The position numbers and the translations under genes were made by a program. Below are positions 31,655 through 42,293 of a DNA stretch of 64,000 bases, in pieces (the stretch's first letter is position 1; every line of letters begins with the position of its first letter). The stretch is from NCBI RefSeq assembly GCF_018343775.1, contig NZ_CP074349.1:5384001-5448000 (forward strand). The letters run 5' to 3'. Source of the DNA: Pseudomonas cichorii. Lineage in GTDB: Bacteria > Pseudomonadota > Gammaproteobacteria > Pseudomonadales > Pseudomonadaceae. The notes under the pieces were generated by a model. That model was given only the letters and a program-made list of their open reading frames with translations. It ran no database searches and was not told the DNA's origin.

Positions 31655-32950
31655 ATGAACGTATTGATTATCGGCAGCGGCGGTCGTGAACACGCTCTGG
31701 CCTGGAAAGTGGCTCAGGACCCGCGGGTCGAGAAGGTTTTCGTCGCGCCGGGCAACGCCGGTACGGCCATCGAAGCCAAGTGCGAGAACGTCGCCATCGA
31801 CGTGCTGGCTCTTGAGCAACTGGCCGACTTCGCCGAGAAGAACGTGTCCCTGACCATCGTCGGTCCGGAAGTCCCGCTGGTCGCAGGCGTTGTGGATCTG
31901 TTCCGCAGCCGTGGCCTGGACTGCTTCGGCCCGACGGCTGGCGCCGCTCAGCTTGAAGGCTCCAAGGCGTTCACCAAGGACTTCCTGGCTCGCCACAAGA
32001 TCCCGACCGCCGACTACCAGAACTTCACCGAGATCGAGCCTGCACTGGCTTACCTGCGTGAAAAAGGCGCTCCGATCGTCATCAAGGCTGACGGCCTGGC
32101 TGCCGGTAAAGGCGTGATCGTTGCCATGACGCTGGCCGAAGCCGAAGACGCCGTGCGCGACATGCTGGCTGGCAATGCCTTTGGCGAAGCCGGTTCGCGG
32201 GTCGTGATCGAAGAGTTTCTGGACGGCGAAGAAGCCAGCTTCATCGTGATGGTCGATGGCAAGAATGTCCTGCCAATGGCCACCAGCCAGGACCACAAGC
32301 GCGTCGGCGACGGCGACAGCGGTCCGAACACCGGCGGCATGGGTGCTTACTCCCCCGCGCCTGTGGTGACTGCCGAAGTTCACCAGCGCGTCATGGATCT
32401 GGTCATCTGGCCAACTGTTCGTGGCATGGCAGAAGAAGGCAACGTTTATACCGGTTTCCTCTATGCTGGTCTGATGATCGACAAGGCGGGCAACCCGAAA
32501 GTCATCGAGTTCAACTGCCGCTTCGGCGACCCGGAAACCCAGCCTGTCATGTTGCGCCTGCAATCTAGCCTGGTGCTGCTGGTCGAAGCTGCGCTGGCAC
32601 AGGCACTGGACAAGGTCGAGGCACAATGGGACCCTCGTCCAAGTCTGGGCATCGTTCTGGCTGCCGGTGGTTACCCTGGCGATTACGCCAAAGGCGCCGC
32701 GATCGAAGGTCTGGATGCTGCGGCACAACTGCCGGGCAAGGTCTTCCATGCAGGCACAGCACTCAAGGACGAGCGTGTCGTCACCAGCGGCGGTCGCGTA
32801 TTGTGCGCAACCGCTCTGGGCGAAACAGTCGGCAAGGCACAGGAAAATGCCTATGCCCTGGCTGCAAGGATTGATTGGGAAGGTTGCTTCTACCGCAAGG
32901 ACATTGGCTACCGTGCCATTGCCCGTGAGCGTGGTGAGAGTCAGGAGTAA
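31655..32950 (+). CDS. purD: Phosphoribosylamine-glycine ligase
   Basis: A 431-residue ATP-grasp enzyme that makes glycinamide ribonucleotide in purine synthesis. Motifs include MNVLIIGSGGREHALAWKV, VGPEVPLVAGVVDLFR, FTKDFLARHKIPTADY, VIKADGLAAGKGVIVA, ATSQDHKRVGDGDSGPNTGG and VIEFNCRFGDPETQ. Start has AAGGAGA upstream. It lies with purH, as is usual in pseudomonads, though the two are separated by a repeat. Confidence 0.97.
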   Translation: MNVLIIGSGGREHALAWKVAQDPRVEKVFVAPGNAGTAIEAKCENVAIDVLALEQLADFAEKNVSLTIVGPEVPLVAGVVDLFRSRGLDCFGPTAGAAQLEGSKAFTKDFLARHKIPTADYQNFTEIEPALAYLREKGAPIVIKADGLAAGKGVIVAMTLAEAEDAVRDMLAGNAFGEAGSRVVIEEFLDGEEASFIVMVDGKNVLPMATSQDHKRVGDGDSGPNTGGMGAYSPAPVVTAEVHQRVMDLVIWPTVRGMAEEGNVYTGFLYAGLMIDKAGNPKVIEFNCRFGDPETQPVMLRLQSSLVLLVEAALAQALDKVEAQWDPRPSLGIVLAAGGYPGDYAKGAAIEGLDAAAQLPGKVFHAGTALKDERVVTSGGRVLCATALGETVGKAQENAYALAARIDWEGCFYRKDIGYRAIARERGESQE

Positions 32951-32958
32951 GTCTACCG

Positions 32959-32985
32959 GACCAGCCCCTGACAAGGGGGCTGGTC
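32959..32985 (+). terminator. Hairpin after purD (probable terminator)
   Basis: GACCAGCCCC pairs with GGGGCTGGTC around a seven-base loop, nine bases after the purD stop. The T-tract downstream is weak, so termination may be partial. Confidence 0.6.
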
Positions 32986-33041
32986 GGTTGCTCCGGCACT
33001 GCGCACTGTTATCAGGCATTCACTCAGGAAGGGATATCACC

Positions 33042-35828
33042 GTGCGCTGGCTCAGGATTGCCATAGTTTCAACAGCCGGACTACTGTCCTTGCTCTTCAT
33101 GCTCACGGCCAAGGCCGAGCATGGCGCTGGGTGGTCCACGCTGCTCGACGAACAGGCAAGCCTGCAACTGAACGATATCCGCTCGGCCCGCTACCAGAAC
33201 CAGTTCAGCCCCATCGACCTTGAACGGGTCACGGCAGCCGACCGCGACAGCGCGTTATGGCTGCACTACCGGGTACCTCCTACCCGACACGAACAACTGA
33301 TACGCATCTTCGCGCCAGACCTGGCCAGCGGAGACCTGTACATCATCGAAGGCGAAAAGCTGGTCGACCACCTGCGCACCGGTAACGATGTGCCCAAGCA
33401 GGATCAGCGACTGCCCTCCAACGATTTCCTGCTCCCCGTCCCGCAAAGCGATGTCCCGCTGGACCTGTACCTGCGACTCGTCTCGACCCAGAAACTGCGC
33501 CCCAGCATCACGCTGCAACCGGCGATAGCCAGCGCGGCCGACGAGCGCGAACCTTTCCTGTTCGGCCTGCTGTTCGGCGCGCTGATCATGCTGATCATCC
33601 AGAACCTCACGCGCTACTGGCACACCAAGTCGCGCAGCAACCTGTGGCTGGCCGCCTGTGAAACCCTGCTGGCATTGAGCGCGTTCCTGCTGCTCAACCT
33701 GATCGACATGGCCAAGACCTGGCATATCGCGCAAACGCCGGGGGCCCACGTTGCGCTGTTGCTCGCCGCCGTGGCCGGCCTGTTCTACACCTACTGCTTC
33801 TTCGTGCATCGAGGTATCAAGGTACTCGACCGACTGATGCAGGTCGATGCCGTGCTCATGGGCACCGGCGTGCTGCTGGTACTGCTGTTCGATAGCGTTC
33901 CACTCAACGTCATGACCTTCCTGCTGGTTTCCCTGACCACGCTGAGCATCCTGACGGTATCGGTCTGGCACTGGCAGAAAGGCTACCGTCCGGCGCGGAC
34001 GTTCGTGGCCTCGATGATCCTCTTCAACCTCGGTTATCTGGTGATCGTGCCGGGTCTGTTGTGGCTGAGCCTGATCCCGCCGCAATGGCTGATCCTCGCC
34101 CTGCTGGGGGTTTTCTGTATCTGCGGCCTGCTGATGAGCATCGCGCTCAACGAACGCTCGCGCAGCATTACCGAAGACAAGTTCAGCCTGAGCCGCGATC
34201 AGGCCGCCAGCACGGCGGAAGTCAACGCCAAGGCCGAGTTCCTGGCCAAGATCAGCCACGAAATCCGCACGCCCATGAACGGCGTGCTCGGCATGACCGA
34301 ACTGCTGCTGGATACCCCGCTTTCGGTCAAGCAGCGCGACTATGTGGAAACCATCCACAGCGCAGGCAACGAACTGCTGACGCTGATCAACGAGATCCTT
34401 GATATCTCCAAGCTCGAGTCGGGCCAGATCGAACTCGATGACGTGCAATTCGATATCAGTGCCCTCATCGAGGACTGCCTCAACATATTCCGCGCCAAGG
34501 CCGAACAGCAGAACGTCGAACTGATCAGCCTGATCCATCCCCAGGTGCCGCGAGTCATCAGTGGCGACCCGACACGTCTGCGCCAGACGCTGCTGAGCCT
34601 GCTGGAAAACGCGCTGAAGAAAACCGAAGAAGGCGAAATCCTGCTGGCGGTCGCGCTTGACTCCAAGCCCGGCAAACATCGCGTACGCATCTCGGTACAG
34701 GACAGTGGCATGCCGTTGTCTGCGGAAGAGCGCGATGCCTTGATGCACACCGAACTGCACAGCAAGCACTTCCTGACCAGCAACAAGCTCGGTGGCCACC
34801 TGGGGCTGGTCATTGCGCGCCGGCTGACAGAGCTGATGGATGGCGAGTTCGGTATCCAGAACGGCCACACTCAAGGCACCACACTCTGGCTGAGCCTGCC
34901 ACTGGACGCCAAGCTGCTGGAGCAGCCGACCACCGATCTGGACGGCCCGCTCAAGGATGCTCGCGTGCTGGTGGTTGATGACAACGATACCTGCCGCAAA
35001 GTGCTGGTGCAGCAGTGCAGCGCCTGGGGCCTGAACGTCAGTGCCGTGCCGTCCGGCAAGGAAGCGCTGGCGTTGCTGCGAACCAAGGCGAACTTGCGCG
35101 ACTATTTCGATGTGGTACTGCTCGATCAGAACATGCCCGGCATGAGCGGCATGCAACTGGCGGCCAAGATCAAGGAAGACCCGAGCCTCAATCACGACAT
35201 CCTGTTGATCATGCTCACCGGTATCAGCAACGCGCCCAGCAAGATCATCGCCCGCAATGCCGGCATCAAGCGCATTCTGGCCAAACCGGTGGCTGGCTAT
35301 ACGCTCAAGACCACGCTGGCAGACGAACTGACTCAACTGAACAAGGGTGTCGTTCCGCTTTCGTCGCAGCCTGCCTTGAACACGCCGGTCAGCGTGCCCG
35401 GCGACTTCCGTATTCTGGTAGCCGAAGACAACACCATCTCGACCAAGGTCATTCGCGGCATGCTCGGCAAACTCAACCTGCGCCCTGACACTGCCAGCAA
35501 CGGCGAAGAGGCGCTGCGAGCCATGAAGGCACAGCGTTACGACCTGGTGCTCATGGACTGTGAAATGCCAATCCTCGATGGCTTCTCGGCCACCGAGCAA
35601 CTGCGGGCCTGGGAAGTGGGCAACCAGCGGGTGCGTACTCCGGTAGTAGCCCTGACGGCGCACATTCTGACCGAACACAAGGATCGTGCCCGTCAGGCGG
35701 GTATGGACGGGCATATGGCAAAACCCATCGAGTTGTCGCAGTTGAGGGAGTTGATCGAATACTGGGTCGAACAGCGTGAGGCAACCCGCACCCTGACGTC
35801 TAATGGCAACCTCTACCAGCAGAACTGA
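33042..35828 (+). CDS. retS: Hybrid sensor kinase RetS
   Basis: A 928-residue hybrid kinase. It has a signal/first membrane segment ([16 protein letters not shown]), a periplasmic 7TMR-DISMED2 domain (about 40-170), seven membrane helices (about 180-370), HisKA with His406 ([12 protein letters not shown]), HATPase (about 500-625), and two receiver domains with Asp695 ([11 protein letters not shown]) and Asp839 ([11 protein letters not shown]). In P. aeruginosa RetS binds GacS and blocks it, shifting from biofilm and T6SS towards motility and T3SS; residue spacing matches that protein. GTG at 33042 with AGGAAGGGA is the start; the much longer frame to 32667 runs inside purD and is rejected. 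Confidence 0.95.
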
Positions 35829-35867: not shown

Positions 35868-36464
35868 ATGCTTCATGTGCTATTCAGCGTTTATCTGAAG
35901 ATGCTGGTGCTCTATAGCCCTTTTTTCGTACTTTCCTGCTTCATCAGCCTGACCCGTGGCCACTCACGCAAGGAGCAGCGGCGTCTGGCGTGGAAAGTCG
36001 CGCTGGCGACGCTGATTTCCAGCGTGCTGCTCTATCTGTTCGGCCGGGTGATCTTCGATGTATTCGGCATCACCGTGGATGCATTCCGGATTGGCGCAGG
36101 CAGCGTGCTGTTCATTTCGGCGCTGGGCATGGCGCAAGGCAAATCGGCGGTACAGACCGATAACATCCAGCAGGATGTCACCATCGTCCCGCTGACCATC
36201 CCGATCACCGTAGGCCCGGGCACCATCGGTGCGCTGCTGGTCATGGGGGTCAGCCAGCCTCATTGGGATGACAAACTCACTGCCATCCTGAGTATTGCCC
36301 TGGCCAGCTTCAGCGTTGGTGTCGTTCTGTATCTGTCGGACCGAATCGAACGCATCCTCGGTGACCAGGGCCTGCAGATTGTCAGCCGTCTGATGGGGTT
36401 GTTCGTCTGTGCCCTGGCAGCGCAAATCATTTTCACCGGGGTCAAAGGGTATCTGGTGCCCTGA
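35868..36464 (+). CDS. MarC/UPF0056 family integral membrane protein
   Basis: A 198-residue protein with six predicted membrane segments and the MarC-family pattern: LYSPFFVLSCFISLTRGHS near the start, then FGITVDAFRIGAGSVLFISA and IVPLTIPITVGPGTIGALLV, the last being the most characteristic block. The function of MarC proteins is not established (the family is not responsible for the mar phenotype). It follows retS by 39 bases, and its end lies four bases from the convergent end of the first unknown paralogue. Confidence 0.85.
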   Translation: MLHVLFSVYLKMLVLYSPFFVLSCFISLTRGHSRKEQRRLAWKVALATLISSVLLYLFGRVIFDVFGITVDAFRIGAGSVLFISALGMAQGKSAVQTDNIQQDVTIVPLTIPITVGPGTIGALLVMGVSQPHWDDKLTAILSIALASFSVGVVLYLSDRIERILGDQGLQIVSRLMGLFVCALAAQIIFTGVKGYLVP

Positions 36465-36468
36465 TACT

Positions 36469-37128
36469 TCAGAGCGGAATGCGCTTGATACGCTCCGCTC
36501 CCCTGTCCTGTAACTCCTTTCGCACACGGTCGCGATTTAAAGCGTATTGGGTATTGTCGAAGACGAAGCCGCCACCCTTGAGCAACAACTTCATTTCATA
36601 GCTGAGCGGCCACATGGGAATCTTCGAAATCCATGAATACCAGGGCTTGGGTTTGGTAAGACTGAGCATTTGCAGCCCACAGATCACAATGTGGATCTGC
36701 CCGGACTCGCGCTTCTCGCAAGGTACCATCTGAAAGCTTTCGGAGCGCCCCACACTGAACCAGCTGCTGAAGAAAACCTTCGCATGCTCGCTATTGAACA
36801 TGTCCTGCAGCGAGGATTTCGCCAGCTCAGCGAGCCGGGGAGAAGTAATACGCGCCACCAGCAGCGCGGCCTGGCTCTGAAAATCCTTGGGTTTCTTGAA
36901 TACCGCAGATTTCTGATCAATGGCCGATGTGCGTGAAAGCCCACACACTACCAACTTCTGCTGGTAAGCATTGATCCAGCCATCCCAGTTTTTCTTGCGA
37001 TCAAAAGCATCGAAAGCACACAGCTCGGCCAGTAACAGGCAATCCTGAATATCCGCCCGCTCCTGCGCATCAAAGCCAGGCAGGAAAGAAACCAGATTAT
37101 TGGCCATCAACAGAGAGTTTGAACTCAT
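36469..37128 (-). CDS. Unknown protein, paralogue 4 of a four-gene family
   Basis: A 219-residue soluble protein of a family I do not recognise. The N-terminal block (residues 8-63) reads MANNLVSFLPGFDAQERADI then QDCLLLAELCAFDAF and WINAYQQKLVVCG. The C-terminal block holds SFQMVPCEKRESGQIHIVICGL and FVFDNTQYALNRDRVRKEL. Both blocks align by eye with paralogue 1 (39010-39657); the N-terminal block is shared with all four. There is no signal peptide or membrane segment. Its ATG overlaps the stop of paralogue 3 (ATGA), so the two are co-translated. It could be a structural or secreted protein; no catalytic motif is visible. Confidence 0.8.
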   Translation of the reverse strand: MSSNSLLMANNLVSFLPGFDAQERADIQDCLLLAELCAFDAFDRKKNWDGWINAYQQKLVVCGLSRTSAIDQKSAVFKKPKDFQSQAALLVARITSPRLAELAKSSLQDMFNSEHAKVFFSSWFSVGRSESFQMVPCEKRESGQIHIVICGLQMLSLTKPKPWYSWISKIPMWPLSYEMKLLLKGGGFVFDNTQYALNRDRVRKELQDRGAERIKRIPL

Positions 37129-37847
37129 GGCTCGTCCCCCTCCAGACCGACAATCAACTCGTCGCGTCTGACACCCAGCCTGGCGACCAGATCCTTTCTG
37201 AAATAACCGAAACCATGTTCATCCAGCTCGGCGGAGACATATGCGATCTCCAGGCTCTTCACGTTGCTCAATTCGGCAAACAACTGCGCAAGCGACTGCT
37301 CACCTGCGGGTGGCGTACTTTTGAACGAGAGAATAATCAGATTGACCACCGGCTCGACATCGACGAACGCCAGTTGCAGGATGACCGAGCAATCCTGCTG
37401 GCCTGGTGCGTCCGGCTCCGTGGCCGACTCAGGGAGCACCAGAACCGGCAGACACTGCGTCGTTTGCTCCGCCAACAAGGCCGTGACGGCCTTCTTTTCG
37501 GTGCCATCCGCAGAGCGTTTCAAGATGCACTCTGCACGCTCGATAAGTGGCAAAGGCACGCGCTTGGACAGCTTTTCCCTAACGTAGGCCCACAGTGAAC
37601 CTGTGTACTCCAGAGGCGCATCCTGCACTTCGCGGTAAACGATATTGCAGCGAAACCGGGTCAGCGCATTGAGATAGGTCTGACGCCATTCGACAGGCTC
37701 GGCAAACTTTTCATGCTTGGCCGAAGCGGCCAACTGGCTATACAGGCTGCAGTCCAGCACATCCGCCTTAAATGAAGGGGAGACGCCGCTGGAAAAAAAG
37801 AACAGGCTGCCTGCATTGATATAACTCTGCTGCATTCCTTTGCACAT
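37125..37847 (-). CDS. Unknown protein, paralogue 3 of a four-gene family
   Basis: A 240-residue soluble protein. The N-terminal block (about 10-67: INAGSLFFFSSGVSPSFKAD, VLDCSLYSQLAASAKHEKF, WRQTYLNALTRFR) matches the other three members in spacing and hydrophobic pattern. The middle contains RVPLPLIERAECILKRSAD and VLVLPESATEPDAPGQQ. The C-terminal block (VNLIILSFKS, then GFGYFRKDLVARLGVRRDEL) is a diverged version of the SWI...EM..RLGG segment of paralogue 1. GGGAG precedes the ATG. It is the first gene after the terminator that follows paralogue 2. Confidence 0.78.
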   Translation of the reverse strand: MCKGMQQSYINAGSLFFFSSGVSPSFKADVLDCSLYSQLAASAKHEKFAEPVEWRQTYLNALTRFRCNIVYREVQDAPLEYTGSLWAYVREKLSKRVPLPLIERAECILKRSADGTEKKAVTALLAEQTTQCLPVLVLPESATEPDAPGQQDCSVILQLAFVDVEPVVNLIILSFKSTPPAGEQSLAQLFAELSNVKSLEIAYVSAELDEHGFGYFRKDLVARLGVRRDELIVGLEGDEP

Positions 37848-37870
37848 AAGACTCCCTCACTACGCTCATC

Positions 37871-37896
37871 AAAAAAAGCCGCGGCGAACCGCGGCT
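37871..37896 (-). terminator. Strong intrinsic terminator between paralogues 2 and 3
   Basis: Read on the minus strand, AGCCGCGG-TTCG-CCGCGGCT is a perfect eight-base-pair stem with a stable TTCG tetraloop followed by TTTTTTT. It lies 10 bases past the stop of paralogue 2 and 24 bases before the ATG of paralogue 3, so expression of paralogues 3 and 4 depends on read-through or a promoter overlapping this short gap. Confidence 0.9.
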
Positions 37897-37906
37897 CAAC
37901 AACACA

Positions 37907-38698
37907 TCAGATCTCGAATTCAGCCAGGGCAGATCGGGCATTTGCCGTCAGCTTCGCCTCAACCTCACCCTTTACCCGCGCATAATGCTGAGGGTTGAGG
38001 ACCAGATTGTTCTCGGCACGCTTGATGCGAACAGAAGCATTGTTCCACTCCCAGAACAGCACGTTGGTGATGTCTTGAGACGTGACAAAGTTCACTGCAC
38101 CCATGGCCATGACCACTTCACCATCACTGGACTCGGCGGCAGACGCGATAGCGAATTTGGCACTTTTGTGGGTTTTGCTTGAGTTCTCGAACAAGCGAAG
38201 TGGCTTGTCACTGGACTGCAGAGCCTTGACGGTGTCCTTGGCGACCTTGAGCAGTAATACAGAGGTCGGACCCGGTACTGTCATGGCAAAGATGGCCGAT
38301 TCCAGAATCTTCAGTGCTTCCTGCTCCATGGTGAAACGCGTATTGCTGCTTCGATAGTCCGAAAGCTCTTTGGACTGAGAGAACCAGCCGCAGTAACCCA
38401 GCACCTTGGTGAAGGTTTCATACCACTGCACGGCATTTTCATTGTTGTCGCGGTACTTCTTGCTGGCGGCCAGCGAAGCGAGCAGAACACTGTCCTTGAG
38501 AATCTGTTTGTTCTCTTTCGACATGCCGGAAACGATAGAGACAACGGTATCGCCGGCAACCAGTGCACCAGGATTTTTCTCATCCACTTCCATAAGGCCC
38601 AAAGACTTCCGCTTGTTATCGACATGTTCCTGATGACCACAGTCACCCAAGTCACAGTTAGCGATTTCGATTTTGCTTTCTTCAACTTTATCAAACAT
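37907..38698 (-). CDS. Unknown protein, paralogue 2 of a four-gene family (longest member)
   Basis: A 263-residue protein. The start at 38698 has AAGGAATTTAAAA immediately upstream; the in-frame start at 38821 would add 41 residues with no such site. It has an extra N-terminal segment of 45 residues with Cys15, Cys20, His22 and His25 (NCDLGDCGHQEH), then the shared family block at 46-106 (ALVAGDTVVSIVSGMSKENK, LLASLAASKKY, QWYETFTKVLGYCG). The C-terminal part KFAIASAAESSDGEVVMAMG and FWEWNNASVRIKRAEN aligns with the end of paralogues 1 and 4. It has a good ribosome binding site and its own terminator, which suggests strong expression. Function unknown. Confidence 0.78.
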   Translation of the reverse strand: MFDKVEESKIEIANCDLGDCGHQEHVDNKRKSLGLMEVDEKNPGALVAGDTVVSIVSGMSKENKQILKDSVLLASLAASKKYRDNNENAVQWYETFTKVLGYCGWFSQSKELSDYRSSNTRFTMEQEALKILESAIFAMTVPGPTSVLLLKVAKDTVKALQSSDKPLRLFENSSKTHKSAKFAIASAAESSDGEVVMAMGAVNFVTSQDITNVLFWEWNNASVRIKRAENNLVLNPQHYARVKGEVEAKLTANARSALAEFEI

Positions 38699-39009
38699 TT
38701 TTAAATTCCTTTTCAAGTCAAGTTCATCCGTAAGGGACAATTCAAAGCTACCCCATGCCTTTGCGTTTCTCCATACCGTGCAAAAGCTGCCAACTGCAAA
38801 AAGTAGGACCCCGGCAAACAACTAAAAACAAAACAAATAAATACCGCACATACCACAAACACAAGATAGGCAAAGGGATAGATCGAGCGTTACGTTCAAA
38901 AAATCTTTTATGTCCGTCACCCTCGAGGCGCCTGGATGACACCTAGGCGTTCCAAAAACCCGATTCATAGATGGAAAGTTTCTTACAGCCTCTGCCGTAA
39001 GCAAATAAT
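38699..39009 (-). promoter_or_regulatory. AT-rich gap upstream of paralogue 2
   Basis: These 311 bases lie between paralogue 1 and paralogue 2. The stretch 38820-38870 is unusually AT-rich for this genome and is the likely promoter of paralogue 2. Two hairpins are visible: CTTACAGC/GCCGTAAG at 38982-39001 (just past the paralogue 1 stop) and CGCCT/AGGCG at about 38928-38949. I see no gene in it. Confidence 0.5.
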
Positions 39010-39657
39010 TCAGATGTTTATCTGCCGGAGATTGAAGTTGCCGACTTCCTTCAAGCGGGCGCGGATACGCTCCCTCTGGGGAGCAAAAGCGGCGCTTGTA
39101 AACCCGTAGACACCGCCGCCCAGACGCACCACCATCTCGCGCTTAATCCACGAGTTCCCACCACGGCTATCTGAGGTGGCAGTGGCGCTGGCATTCAGAC
39201 CGCACAGCAGCAAGTGCACCTCCCCGGCAACCTCTTCACAGGGCACGATCTGAAAATTGCCAACCGACCCAGAACCCGAGCCGTACTGAAAGAAATGCTG
39301 CGCATACTGATTGAGCCGCGCCGCCTTGAATGAGCGCCGGGTGAGCTCCAGCAGGTTGCCGACACGCACTGAGCCTGTGATATCAAAGCTGATACTATCC
39401 AGCTCTTCGGCATCGGTAATGACCATCGGCTCCTTGACGATCTGGCTTTTAAGCTTGCACCCGGACCTGACGAGGGTGCTGCGGTAATAGTTGAGCCAAC
39501 TGCTCCAGAACTCGTCAGGCCGATAACTCTGGGTGGCAAAGAACTCGGCATACAACAGCATATCTGCAATATCTTCCCGCGCCTGCCTTGAGACACTGGA
39601 AGAGAAGGAAACAATATTACTGCCCGCGATCAGGGCATTGAAAGTTTGACTTGCCAT
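39010..39657 (-). CDS. Unknown protein, paralogue 1 of a four-gene family
   Basis: A 215-residue soluble protein, first of the set. The family block is residues 10-66 (IAGSNIVSFSSSVSRQARED, IADMLLYAEFFATQSY, WLNYYRSTLVRSG). The C-terminal block has FQIVPCEEVAGEVHLLLCGL, SWIKREMVVRLGGGVYGF and FAPQRERIRARLKEVG, which match paralogue 4 closely. The middle is rich in Ser/Gly (FFQYGSGSGSVGNF). No signal peptide, membrane segment or catalytic motif is seen. AAGGATG precedes the ATG. A 198-base gap with a REP element separates it from the cob cluster. Confidence 0.8.
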   Translation of the reverse strand: MASQTFNALIAGSNIVSFSSSVSRQAREDIADMLLYAEFFATQSYRPDEFWSSWLNYYRSTLVRSGCKLKSQIVKEPMVITDAEELDSISFDITGSVRVGNLLELTRRSFKAARLNQYAQHFFQYGSGSGSVGNFQIVPCEEVAGEVHLLLCGLNASATATSDSRGGNSWIKREMVVRLGGGVYGFTSAAFAPQRERIRARLKEVGNFNLRQINI

Positions 39658-39799
39658 TATCTACATCCTTATAGAAACAAGGACATGAAACTAGCCAGAC
39701 TGACACGGTTATACAACAAGAGAAATAGCGACCTGAGGGAAATTACAAAAACAATAAACAACCACCCGCAGGGTTTAAAGAGACTTCTTACGTTTTGCC

Positions 39800-39851
39800 T
39801 TCGCGAATGAACTCACCTCTACAAATAGCAGGAGCGAATTCATTCGCGAAA
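39800..39851. repeat. REP palindrome, family R2, copy 2
   Basis: TTCGCGAATGAACTCACCTC and GGAGCGAATTCATTCGCGAA are inverted arms around a short loop. The element marks the border between the unknown paralogue cluster and the cobalamin cluster, just past the cobJ stop. Confidence 0.75.
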
Positions 39852-39855
39852 GATA

Positions 39856-41559
39856 TCAGCTACCCGGCTTGACCGGATACCAGCGTGGCGTATACACCCA
39901 TTGCTCGCCATTGGGACGGGCAAAGGTGCAGGTGGTCGAAGAACCGATCAGCACCATCGTGCGCATATCCACCTGTTCAGGCGTCAGTTCACCCAGAGTA
40001 ATGACACGCAACGTCTGTCCTGGACGACCGATATCACGTCCCAGCGTCACGGGCGTTTCAGGTGTACGGTGCTGGCGCACGATCTCCAGGGCTCGGCCCA
40101 GTTGCCAGGGGCGTGAACGCGAAATCGGGTTGTAGAAAGCCAGTGCCAAATCAGCCTGAGAAGCCAGGTCCAGACGCTTTTCGATCACATCCCAGGGTTT
40201 GAGGTTGTCGGACAGCGACATGACGCAGAAGTCATGACCCAAGGGCGCACCCGCCTGAGCCGCCGTCGCCAGGGAAGCCGAGACGCCCGGCAGGATTTCC
40301 AGCTCAACGGCATGCCATCTAGGGTCACTGGATTCATGCAATGCCTCAAGCACGGCGGAGGCCATGGCGAATACACCCGGATCACCGGACGACACCACCA
40401 CCACCGAGCGACCTTGTGCCGCCAGCTCGAACGCATGGCGGGCACGCAGCATTTCTTCGCGGTTGTCGGTGCAATGGAGCACCTGATCGGGACGGAAAGG
40501 CCCGGCCATGCGCACATAGGTTTCGTAACCCAGTACATCGTTGGCACGCGCCAGTTCGGCCTTGACCGCAGGCACCATGAATTCGGCAGCACCCGGCCCA
40601 AGGCCAATCACCGCCAATCGACCGCGCCCGCGACCGATCTGCTGAACGTCCAGTGGCTGACGGGCAACCGCAAGCGCCATGCCCTCGCCCACACTGATCG
40701 GTGGCAGCAGTTGCGGTACCGCATGCCGGGCCATTTCACTGGCGGTTTCAGTCTGGACAAAACGCACAGGTACACCCAGATCGGCAGCCGCCTGATGCAA
40801 GTCGGCATCAGCCATCTGTGCATCACCCGCCAGCAGGCAGGCCAGAGACTGCACAGCCACTCGGGCTTCGTGCAGTGCCGCACGCACACTGTCGGCCAGT
40901 TGCGAACCGGTTTCGCTGACCGCAACCAGCACACTGCGCGGATAAATCAGCAACTCATTGCTTGAAGGCTCACGCTCGGCACAGCCTACGTGAATGGCCA
41001 GTTCGGCGTGTGGGTCCTCCGGCAACTGCGCCTGCGCCAGCCAGGGCGCAGCGCCTTCGATACGCACGCGTTCGCCGGAAAGCAGATCGGAAACGAAGCG
41101 CTTGCCCAGTTCCAGATCGCCCAGGGCATAACCACTGGGAGGATTGAGCAGGCAAGTACCGAAACGCAGCTCGCCACTGGTGGTGATGGCTGGCGCAACG
41201 CCAAGGCCAGCGGCGATTTCACGGGCCATGACATTGACGCCACCCAGCCCGCCCAGCAGCGGAACGACGGCGCTGCCATCTTCGGCCACGGCCAGCACGG
41301 CGGGTTCGGCGCCCTTTTCGAGCAGCAGCGGCGCGAGAGTCCGGATCACGATACCCGAGGCACACAGGGCAATGATCGGGGTGTTCTGTTGATACAACTG
41401 GCGCAGGGTCGTACCAAACTCGGTGTAGGTGCTGTCCGCCCCTTGCACCCGCTCGGCCAGGCCATGAATCAGCGCATCCGGGTAAAGCTGCTGGATGCGT
41501 CGCGCAGTAGCCAGGCTGCCATTGCCCAGGATCACAATGGCTGGAATATTCTGGACCAT
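39856..41559 (-). CDS. cobJ: CbiG-CobJ fusion: precorrin-3B C17-methyltransferase
   Basis: A 567-residue fusion. Residues about 1-210 are CbiG-like (ALCASGIVIRTLAPLLLEKG, EDGSAVVPLLGGLGGVNVMA), about 215-320 match the CbiG C-terminal/CobE-like domain, and about 328-560 form a tetrapyrrole methylase of the CobJ/CbiH type (RLAVIGLGPGAAEFMVPAV, VVSSGDPGVFAMASAVLEAL, DLALAFYNPISRSRP). CobJ methylates C17 and drives ring contraction in the corrin pathway. The ATG at 41559 overlaps the cobI stop (ATGA); the GTG four codons earlier is less likely. Last gene of the minus-strand cob operon. Confidence 0.9.
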   Translation of the reverse strand: MVQNIPAIVILGNGSLATARRIQQLYPDALIHGLAERVQGADSTYTEFGTTLRQLYQQNTPIIALCASGIVIRTLAPLLLEKGAEPAVLAVAEDGSAVVPLLGGLGGVNVMAREIAAGLGVAPAITTSGELRFGTCLLNPPSGYALGDLELGKRFVSDLLSGERVRIEGAAPWLAQAQLPEDPHAELAIHVGCAEREPSSNELLIYPRSVLVAVSETGSQLADSVRAALHEARVAVQSLACLLAGDAQMADADLHQAAADLGVPVRFVQTETASEMARHAVPQLLPPISVGEGMALAVARQPLDVQQIGRGRGRLAVIGLGPGAAEFMVPAVKAELARANDVLGYETYVRMAGPFRPDQVLHCTDNREEMLRARHAFELAAQGRSVVVVSSGDPGVFAMASAVLEALHESSDPRWHAVELEILPGVSASLATAAQAGAPLGHDFCVMSLSDNLKPWDVIEKRLDLASQADLALAFYNPISRSRPWQLGRALEIVRQHRTPETPVTLGRDIGRPGQTLRVITLGELTPEQVDMRTMVLIGSSTTCTFARPNGEQWVYTPRWYPVKPGS

Positions 41560-42293
41560 CAGCCTTGCCACCTTTCACCGGGAACGATGATCAGCGAAAA
41601 GTAAGGCGACGACATGGGATTGACCTCATCCAGCGGCACGATCTTCTGATTGACCATGGTGGCGCGCTCGACGTACAGCGCACGCCCTGCCATGCCCAGC
41701 TCTGTCAGCACATCCCGTACCTTGGGGAAGTTGCGACCCAGCTTCATGATCACCGCCGCATCGGCGTCGGCCAGTTTGCGCTTGAGTTCGTCGGGAGGCA
41801 GTACGCCGGACAGGACCGACAGGCTCTGGTTGCGATACACCAGTGGCGCACCCAGCACGGACGCACCGCCCAGCATCGAGCACACACCCGGAATCACCTG
41901 GGCCTCATAACGCTCGGCCAGCCGGTCATGCAGGTACATATAAGAGCCATAGAAGAACGGGTCGCCCTCACAGATCACCGCCACGTCACGACCGGCATCC
42001 AGATGGGCCGCCACATCAAGGCTGGCCTCGTCATAGAAGTCACTGATGACCTGCTCGTAGGACAGCGGCGCAGGCAGCGCTTCGGTGGTCACCGGGTAGA
42101 CCAGCGGCATCAGCGTCTGGGCTTCCTGCAGATGGCCTTCGATGATGCCGAACGCATTGCCTTTCTTGCCCTTGGCCACGAAATAAGCCACTACGGGGGA
42201 TTCGCGCAGCAGGCGCAGCGCCTTGACGGTAATCAGTTCCGGGTCGCCGGGGCCGACGCCCAGGCCAATCAATCGACCACGAGCCTGCATCAT
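41559..42293 (-). CDS. cobI: Precorrin-2 C20-methyltransferase
   Basis: A 244-residue SAM-dependent tetrapyrrole methylase. It begins [20 protein letters not shown], contains [20 protein letters not shown] (SAM site) and [20 protein letters not shown], and ends near [13 protein letters not shown]. It adds the C20 methyl group to precorrin-2. It overlaps cobH upstream and cobJ downstream by four-base stop/start overlaps, a tightly coupled operon. Confidence 0.94.

Follow-up and report, generated by a model that had tools for sequence, protein, structure and literature searches.

The four-gene cluster

A 64,000-nucleotide stretch of the Pseudomonas cichorii genome (contig NZ_CP074349.1, positions 5,384,001 to 5,448,000), called the window here and used for all coordinates, carries four neighboring minus-strand genes that encode diverged members of one protein family. 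In the order g1, g2, g3, g4, with g1 transcribed first, these are g1 (39010..39657; protein P0001, 215 amino acids (aa)), g2 (37907..38698; P0002, 263 aa), g3 (37125..37847; P0003, 240 aa), and g4 (36469..37128; P0004, 219 aa). An earlier interpretation made from the letters of the DNA alone, the sequence-only reading, had reported four minus-strand genes of these lengths, and the open reading frames (ORFs) are confirmed where it had placed them. The product of g2 is the longest subunit, that of g3 is the second subunit, and those of g1 and g4 are third-type subunits. Only g2 has an N-terminal extension, of approximately 37 residues, ahead of the common core; the other three lack it. The g2 ORF stays open up to 38821, which would give 304 aa if the longest start were used; the start of the 263-aa version is retained because AAGGAA precedes it. 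A hairpin of 9 pairs (7 of them G-C) with a T tail lies directly 3' of the g2 stop (37876..37897, minus strand), and g3 and g4 overlap by the 4 bases ATGA (37125..37128, minus strand). The g1 orthologues at loci L005-L008 are 50-89% identical to g1.

Paralogy of the four proteins

The four proteins were proposed in the sequence-only reading to be diverged tandem paralogues, and every pair is above chance. When P0001 is searched against its own genome (5.98 Mb, one contig) with E up to 10, it matches exactly four places, all in the cluster: itself, g4 (E 4.9e-23, 30% identity), g2 (E 0.009), and g3 (E 0.14). Smith-Waterman z-scores, computed against 300 shuffles per pair, are 46 for g1-g4, 11.6 for g1-g2, 9.5 for g2-g4, 8.0 for g1-g3, 4.7 for g3-g4 (where one shuffle, at 58, beat the real score of 54), and 4.5 for g2-g3. 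Profile-profile comparison gives E 1e-39 over 210 columns for g1-g4, 3e-19 over 210 for g1-g2, 1e-14 over 198 for g4-g2, 6e-9 over 206 for g2-g3, and 4e-7 over 193 for g4-g3; the weakest are g1-g3 (87% over 81 columns) and the pairing of g3 with the g2b subgroup (11%). The non-Pseudomonas set in this comparison includes two Sinorhizobium second genes, which raises its g3 score. On these alignments all four proteins share one predicted core domain of about 210 residues.

Because the profile-profile alignments of most pairs span nearly the whole length of the proteins, the N-terminal block of about 57 residues, correctly seen earlier as common to all four, is best regarded as the best-conserved part of this longer domain. 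The C-terminal motifs described for at least three of the proteins are best matched by g1 and g4; g2 and g3 can be aligned in this region, but retain few of the quoted letters. The proteins were also said to have neither signal peptide nor membrane segment. Neither is found by general hydropathy (at most 0.36 over the first 25 residues), and the claim holds to that extent; however, a 19-residue window at position 155 of g3 reaches 2.04, above a common membrane threshold, in a stretch given as beta strand by crude prediction. A cysteine in the FQIxPC strand (the column of Cys140 in P0001) is present in 50 of 84 aligned members, and every g1/g4 protein in alignment A3 has it; to assign it a role, for example in lipid attachment, would be speculative.

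Distribution and gene content in Pseudomonas

The g2-type profile matches 202 of 298 sampled Pseudomonas genomes with E up to 0.001, and 3 of 369 genomes in a sample of the class, own genome counted. A broader profile matches 8 of 398 genomes in a sample of the phylum, six of them Pseudomonas including the own genome and one match being weak and partial, as well as 8 of 244 genomes in one bacterial order. The weak, partial match (E 1.3e-9) at L089 (7936-8994) is to a 352-aa ORF whose N-terminal part differs; it may represent another, distant branch of the family. Gene content is known from a non-random set of 56 Pseudomonas loci, of which 16 were found with the g1 profile, 39 were hand-picked from g2-profile matches (35 genomes), and one is the window; the fetched loci L090 and L091 were left out. 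A g2-type gene is present in 55 of the 56, g3 in 46, and a g1/g4 or other third-type gene in 40. From these counts g2 is the constant part, and the four genes do not always co-occur, which had been put forward as a check on the cluster; the usual core is the long subunit g2 with the second subunit g3 and often a third of g1/g4 type.

The flanks of the window cluster, identified with Pfam, are cobalamin, MarC, histidine-kinase, and purine genes. Upstream is a protein with CbiG_N and tetrapyrrole methylase domains (39856..41571, minus strand), to which we assign the name cobJ. Downstream and convergent is a MarC family protein (35868..36464, plus strand; Pfam MarC E 2e-39), followed by a hybrid histidine kinase with 7TMR-DISM domains (32667..35828, plus strand), presumably retS, a name given by synteny. 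This cobJ/marC/retS site holds the family genes in 49 of the 56 loci: between cobJ and marC in 33, between marC and retS in 12, between cobJ and retS in one, and on contigs ending before cobJ in three. The remaining seven loci are elsewhere.

Several loci show variations on this arrangement. A lone extra family gene lies between cobL and cobG at L058 (2589-3341), L063 (2674-3426), and L065 (13965-14615), and the same genomes hold a single g2-type gene at the cobJ-marC site. At L036 and L059 a g2-g3 pair off the usual site adjoins a citrate synthase-like gene, and this common neighbor suggests a second stable site. The g2-g3 pairs at L062 and L067 are near urease accessory-like genes, with a tandem second pair at L062. 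In a P. cichorii strain (L006, 10626-12235) g4 is absent and an extra g2b-g3 pair occupies its position. Two copies look damaged: the g4 copy at L013 (1425-2066), with a C-terminal part that departs from its relatives, and the g2 copy at L018 (189-605), which is short at 138 aa.

Proposed subunit dosage

Of the 49 regions that separate a g2-type gene from the next family gene, 12 have a strict terminator-like hairpin; 20 shuffled sets gave 0.35 on average and at most 2. Such a hairpin is present 3' of the last family gene in one of 50. Folding energy of the post-g2 region has z < -2 at 31 of 47 loci, a count in which two loci that have two regions each were entered once; the mean is -2.76, and the region of the window itself has z -1.2. 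The step from a g3 gene to the next family gene is a 4-base ATGA overlap in 18 of 38 cases; gene starts were scripted as the longest ORF, which makes some intergenic gaps too small. The hairpin after g2 together with the overlap of g3 with the following gene suggests an excess of g2, with coupled production of smaller amounts of the remaining subunits. The multi-component assembly proposed from the sequence alone thus gains indirect support from recurrent gene order, the post-g2 hairpin, and the g3 overlap. The option of a cytoplasmic fibre is without evidence here; in other bacteria, what lies next to the domain is more in keeping with conflict or lytic systems.

Divergence and phylogeny

In comparison with L010, L011, L014, and L020, the four cluster proteins are only 27-42% identical, although marC, purD, and cobH are 94-97% and retS and cobJ 82-86% identical in the same relatives; judged by these alignments, the cluster proteins diverge far faster than the products of the neighboring genes. 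In a quick tree with SH-aLRT support only, the nine sampled Pseudomonas g3 proteins form one group (97), joined by the second genes from two Sinorhizobium pairs together with a protein from Qingshengfaniella (89, with the fork drawn open). The g1 and g4 types fall in one clade (92), and a second type of third gene forms a separate clade (99). Because the Pseudomonas g3 proteins group with the Sinorhizobium second genes, the split between g2 and g3 seems, with weak support, to predate the genus Pseudomonas.

Searches for a known family

The family was unrecognised in the sequence-only reading and is still without a convincing match in Pfam, NCBIfam, PADLOC, PHROGs, or the PDB. This holds for g1-g4 against Pfam and NCBIfam, for 35 g2-type members against Pfam, NCBIfam, PADLOC, and PHROGs, for 50 mixed members against Pfam, and for eight family profiles plus one single protein against the PDB. 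A phage or tailocin structural protein was considered and rejected: the 35 g2-type members gave four PHROGs models with one member each (best E 0.047). The L046 protein and P0002, the family queries used in this tblastn search, have no match in 50,697 phage records, and Rfam has no match in 36300-40000 with E up to 1. No published description of the family was recognised in a literature search, judged mostly on listings and the openings of abstracts, that also took in passages of PMC8195603. The proteins form a real family, widespread among Pseudomonas, that the searched libraries do not name.

Relatives and neighbors outside Pseudomonas

Outside Pseudomonas, an enzyme is fused to the domain or is its neighbor in 7 of 10 arrangements counted; the kinds are caspase with M15 peptidase, trypsin-like, CHAT, lysozyme-like, amidase, and lipase. 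A tblastn search with the L046 protein matches 50 plasmid records, 45 of them Sinorhizobium, and neighborhoods were taken from seven of the 50. Some fungal proteins may have a similar motif. A fusion of caspase C14 and Peptidase_M15_3 carries the domain C-terminally (residues 880-1150 approximately) in 6 of 244 genomes of one order; Pfam was run on three of the six, and two of these three have a GDSL domain. Beside the fusion gene, five of the six loci have a 720-790 aa protein with a motif read by eye as papain-like, although Pfam finds nothing in the two copies scanned. L106 has a GH19 protein, encoded on the opposite strand, as well as a lipase/subtilase protein, and L107 has a 1359-aa trypsin-like neighbor. 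At L046 in G381 a trypsin-like protein overlaps the family gene (the neighbors of the G505 copies were left out). In Sinorhizobium meliloti GR4 the domain is accompanied by another family gene and by a stretch with homology to the L046 protease (37% over 157 aa, E 7e-22); the ORF annotated at this stretch has no Pfam match. A GDSL-Amidase_3-M15_3 protein and a trypsin-like protein are present in Sinorhizobium fredii (L074), and Rhizobium leguminosarum (L073) has CHAT-TPR-S, GH108, and TIR-nSTAND-WD40 neighbors.

A proposed conflict or lysis module

The lack of a signal peptide, the fast divergence, the several paralogues with a dosage signal, and the linkage to enzymes elsewhere suggest a conflict or lysis function. 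We tentatively propose, with a probability of about 0.4, that the cluster encodes a hetero-oligomeric, soluble or cytosolic conflict module that acts on membrane or envelope and is paired elsewhere with proteases and wall hydrolases; the action on membranes is our inference. In such a module g2 would be the abundant subunit and g3 and the g1/g4 type the minor, coupled subunits, all built on the common core. The subunits would assemble when triggered, perhaps by proteolytic loss of the N-terminal extension of g2, and the assembly could then act on membrane or envelope. In species with linked enzymes, wall hydrolases might thereby reach their substrate and the cell would lyse; in Pseudomonas the module may stand alone, serving programmed lysis or acting against a competitor or predator after release.

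Several observations weigh against this proposal. Gene order, overlaps, and the hairpin bear on assembly only indirectly, and neither assembly nor membrane action nor toxicity has direct evidence. Three of the ten arrangements outside Pseudomonas are without such enzymes: a Vibrio plasmid, where a metallophosphoesterase is present, Curtobacterium, and Qingshengfaniella. Pfam on the flanks finds no protease, wall hydrolase, or lipase adjoining the window genes, and inspection of gene lists by eye showed none at the seven off-site Pseudomonas loci. Among 84 mixed members, PADLOC gives five models with one member each (best E 0.02), none above chance. In most loci the genes keep to one stable place in the chromosome, which does not resemble a mobile defence island, and g2 is alone in 7 of the 33 cobJ-marC loci, three of which also carry the cobL-cobG copy.

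Alternatively, the domain could be a sensor or adaptor of immune signaling, recruiting or regulating protease effectors while itself having no activity on membranes. The caspase/M15 fusion and the TIR, CHAT, and trypsin-like neighbors would fit this, much as in the systems of PMC7159879; however, the Pseudomonas clusters are stand-alone sets of three to four paralogues with no effector beside them, and we consider this role unlikely.

It is doubtful that the family is a new cytolysin-fold clade (the fold of Cyt, Evf, and volvatoxin) whose members make up a pore-forming toxin set aimed at eukaryotes, for example insects or amoebae. The idea was prompted by the order of helices and strands and predated the search with profile A9, whose best PDB match is the Cyt toxin 1cby (E 0.13, collinear over about 125 residues). 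Crude propensity-based prediction gives helix-helix-strand-helix-helix-strands, like the description of CytC in PMC5390079 and weakly compatible with the cytolysin arrangement of a beta sheet flanked by two helical layers, and a four-gene cluster in a plant-associated bacterium, similar protein size, and lack of a signal peptide are consistent with it. However, the PDB searches with seven other family profiles did not give the Cyt match, and an unrelated crotonase scored better with profile A10 (E 0.044). PF01338 has no match in the own genome with E up to 10 and none among 50 members searched with Pfam; over 350 genomes of the class the Cyt model gives weak matches in 15, none above cut-off, and also weak matches in 2 of 14 controls. 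The family is not placed in Cyt because the A9 match was not reproduced, a spurious match with another profile had a better score, and there is no match to PF01338; the fusion to bacterial caspase/M15 proteins would also be left unexplained. The resemblance is only a lead. A broader version, in which the family is an ancient bacterial pore-forming or membrane-acting module of major and minor subunits, retained in the cytosol by most Pseudomonas species as the stand-alone form of a protease/wall-hydrolase lysis machine, and of a fold related to Cyt/Evf toxins, is something of a long shot; if true, it would connect the insecticidal cytolysins to programmed lysis in bacteria.

A structural, housekeeping assembly (a filament, an inclusion, or a compartment) built from one major subunit and two minor ones would suit the layout suggested by hairpin and overlaps, the paralogous subunits, and the lack of a recognised catalytic motif, but is very improbable given the rapid divergence, the copy-number change, the lytic neighbors elsewhere, and the seven loci with g2 alone.

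The proposal of a conflict or lysis module would give a role to a family that is present in roughly two thirds of the Pseudomonas genomes sampled, for the most part at a single site flanked by cobalamin genes and a RetS-like kinase, and has no name in the libraries searched. Fast divergence, the dosage layout, and the caspase/wall-peptidase fusion elsewhere suggest a widespread conflict or lysis device, and the family would be a new component of conflict systems if the proposal holds.

Comparison with known systems

Bacterial gasdermins are protease-activated pore formers, and some relatives of the cluster have a protease that is linked to the domain or part of the same protein. Unlike gasdermins, the window genes have no protease beside them and no Pfam or PADLOC model of such proteins matched; pore formation in this family is conjecture.

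The peptidase-rich conflict systems of alphaproteobacteria called ‘System 3’ have a NucA endonuclease as their core (PMC7159879). The alphaproteobacterial relatives of the family similarly adjoin trypsin-like, subtilase, and lysozyme-like proteins, and one locus has TIR-STAND-WD40. Unlike ‘System 3’, the Pseudomonas clusters are without such neighbors, and no trypsin-like or effector gene is in the window operon. A NucA-type endonuclease is not among the Pfam matches of the subset of neighbors scanned, and no description of this domain was recognised in the ‘System 3’ section of PMC7159879. Because the NucA core is unseen in these neighbors and the window has no neighbor of this kind, the family is not placed in the peptidase-rich systems.

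Another parallel is the four-gene cytA-D cluster of Dickeya dadantii, which acts against aphids (PMC5390079). Both clusters have four paralogous genes of similar size with cytosolic products, and the order of secondary-structure elements is perhaps like that of CytC, although it is a crude prediction here. Unlike cytA-D, the family has no PF01338 match, and its one profile match is at chance level and not reproduced; it is also far more widespread in Pseudomonas and is fused to enzymes elsewhere.

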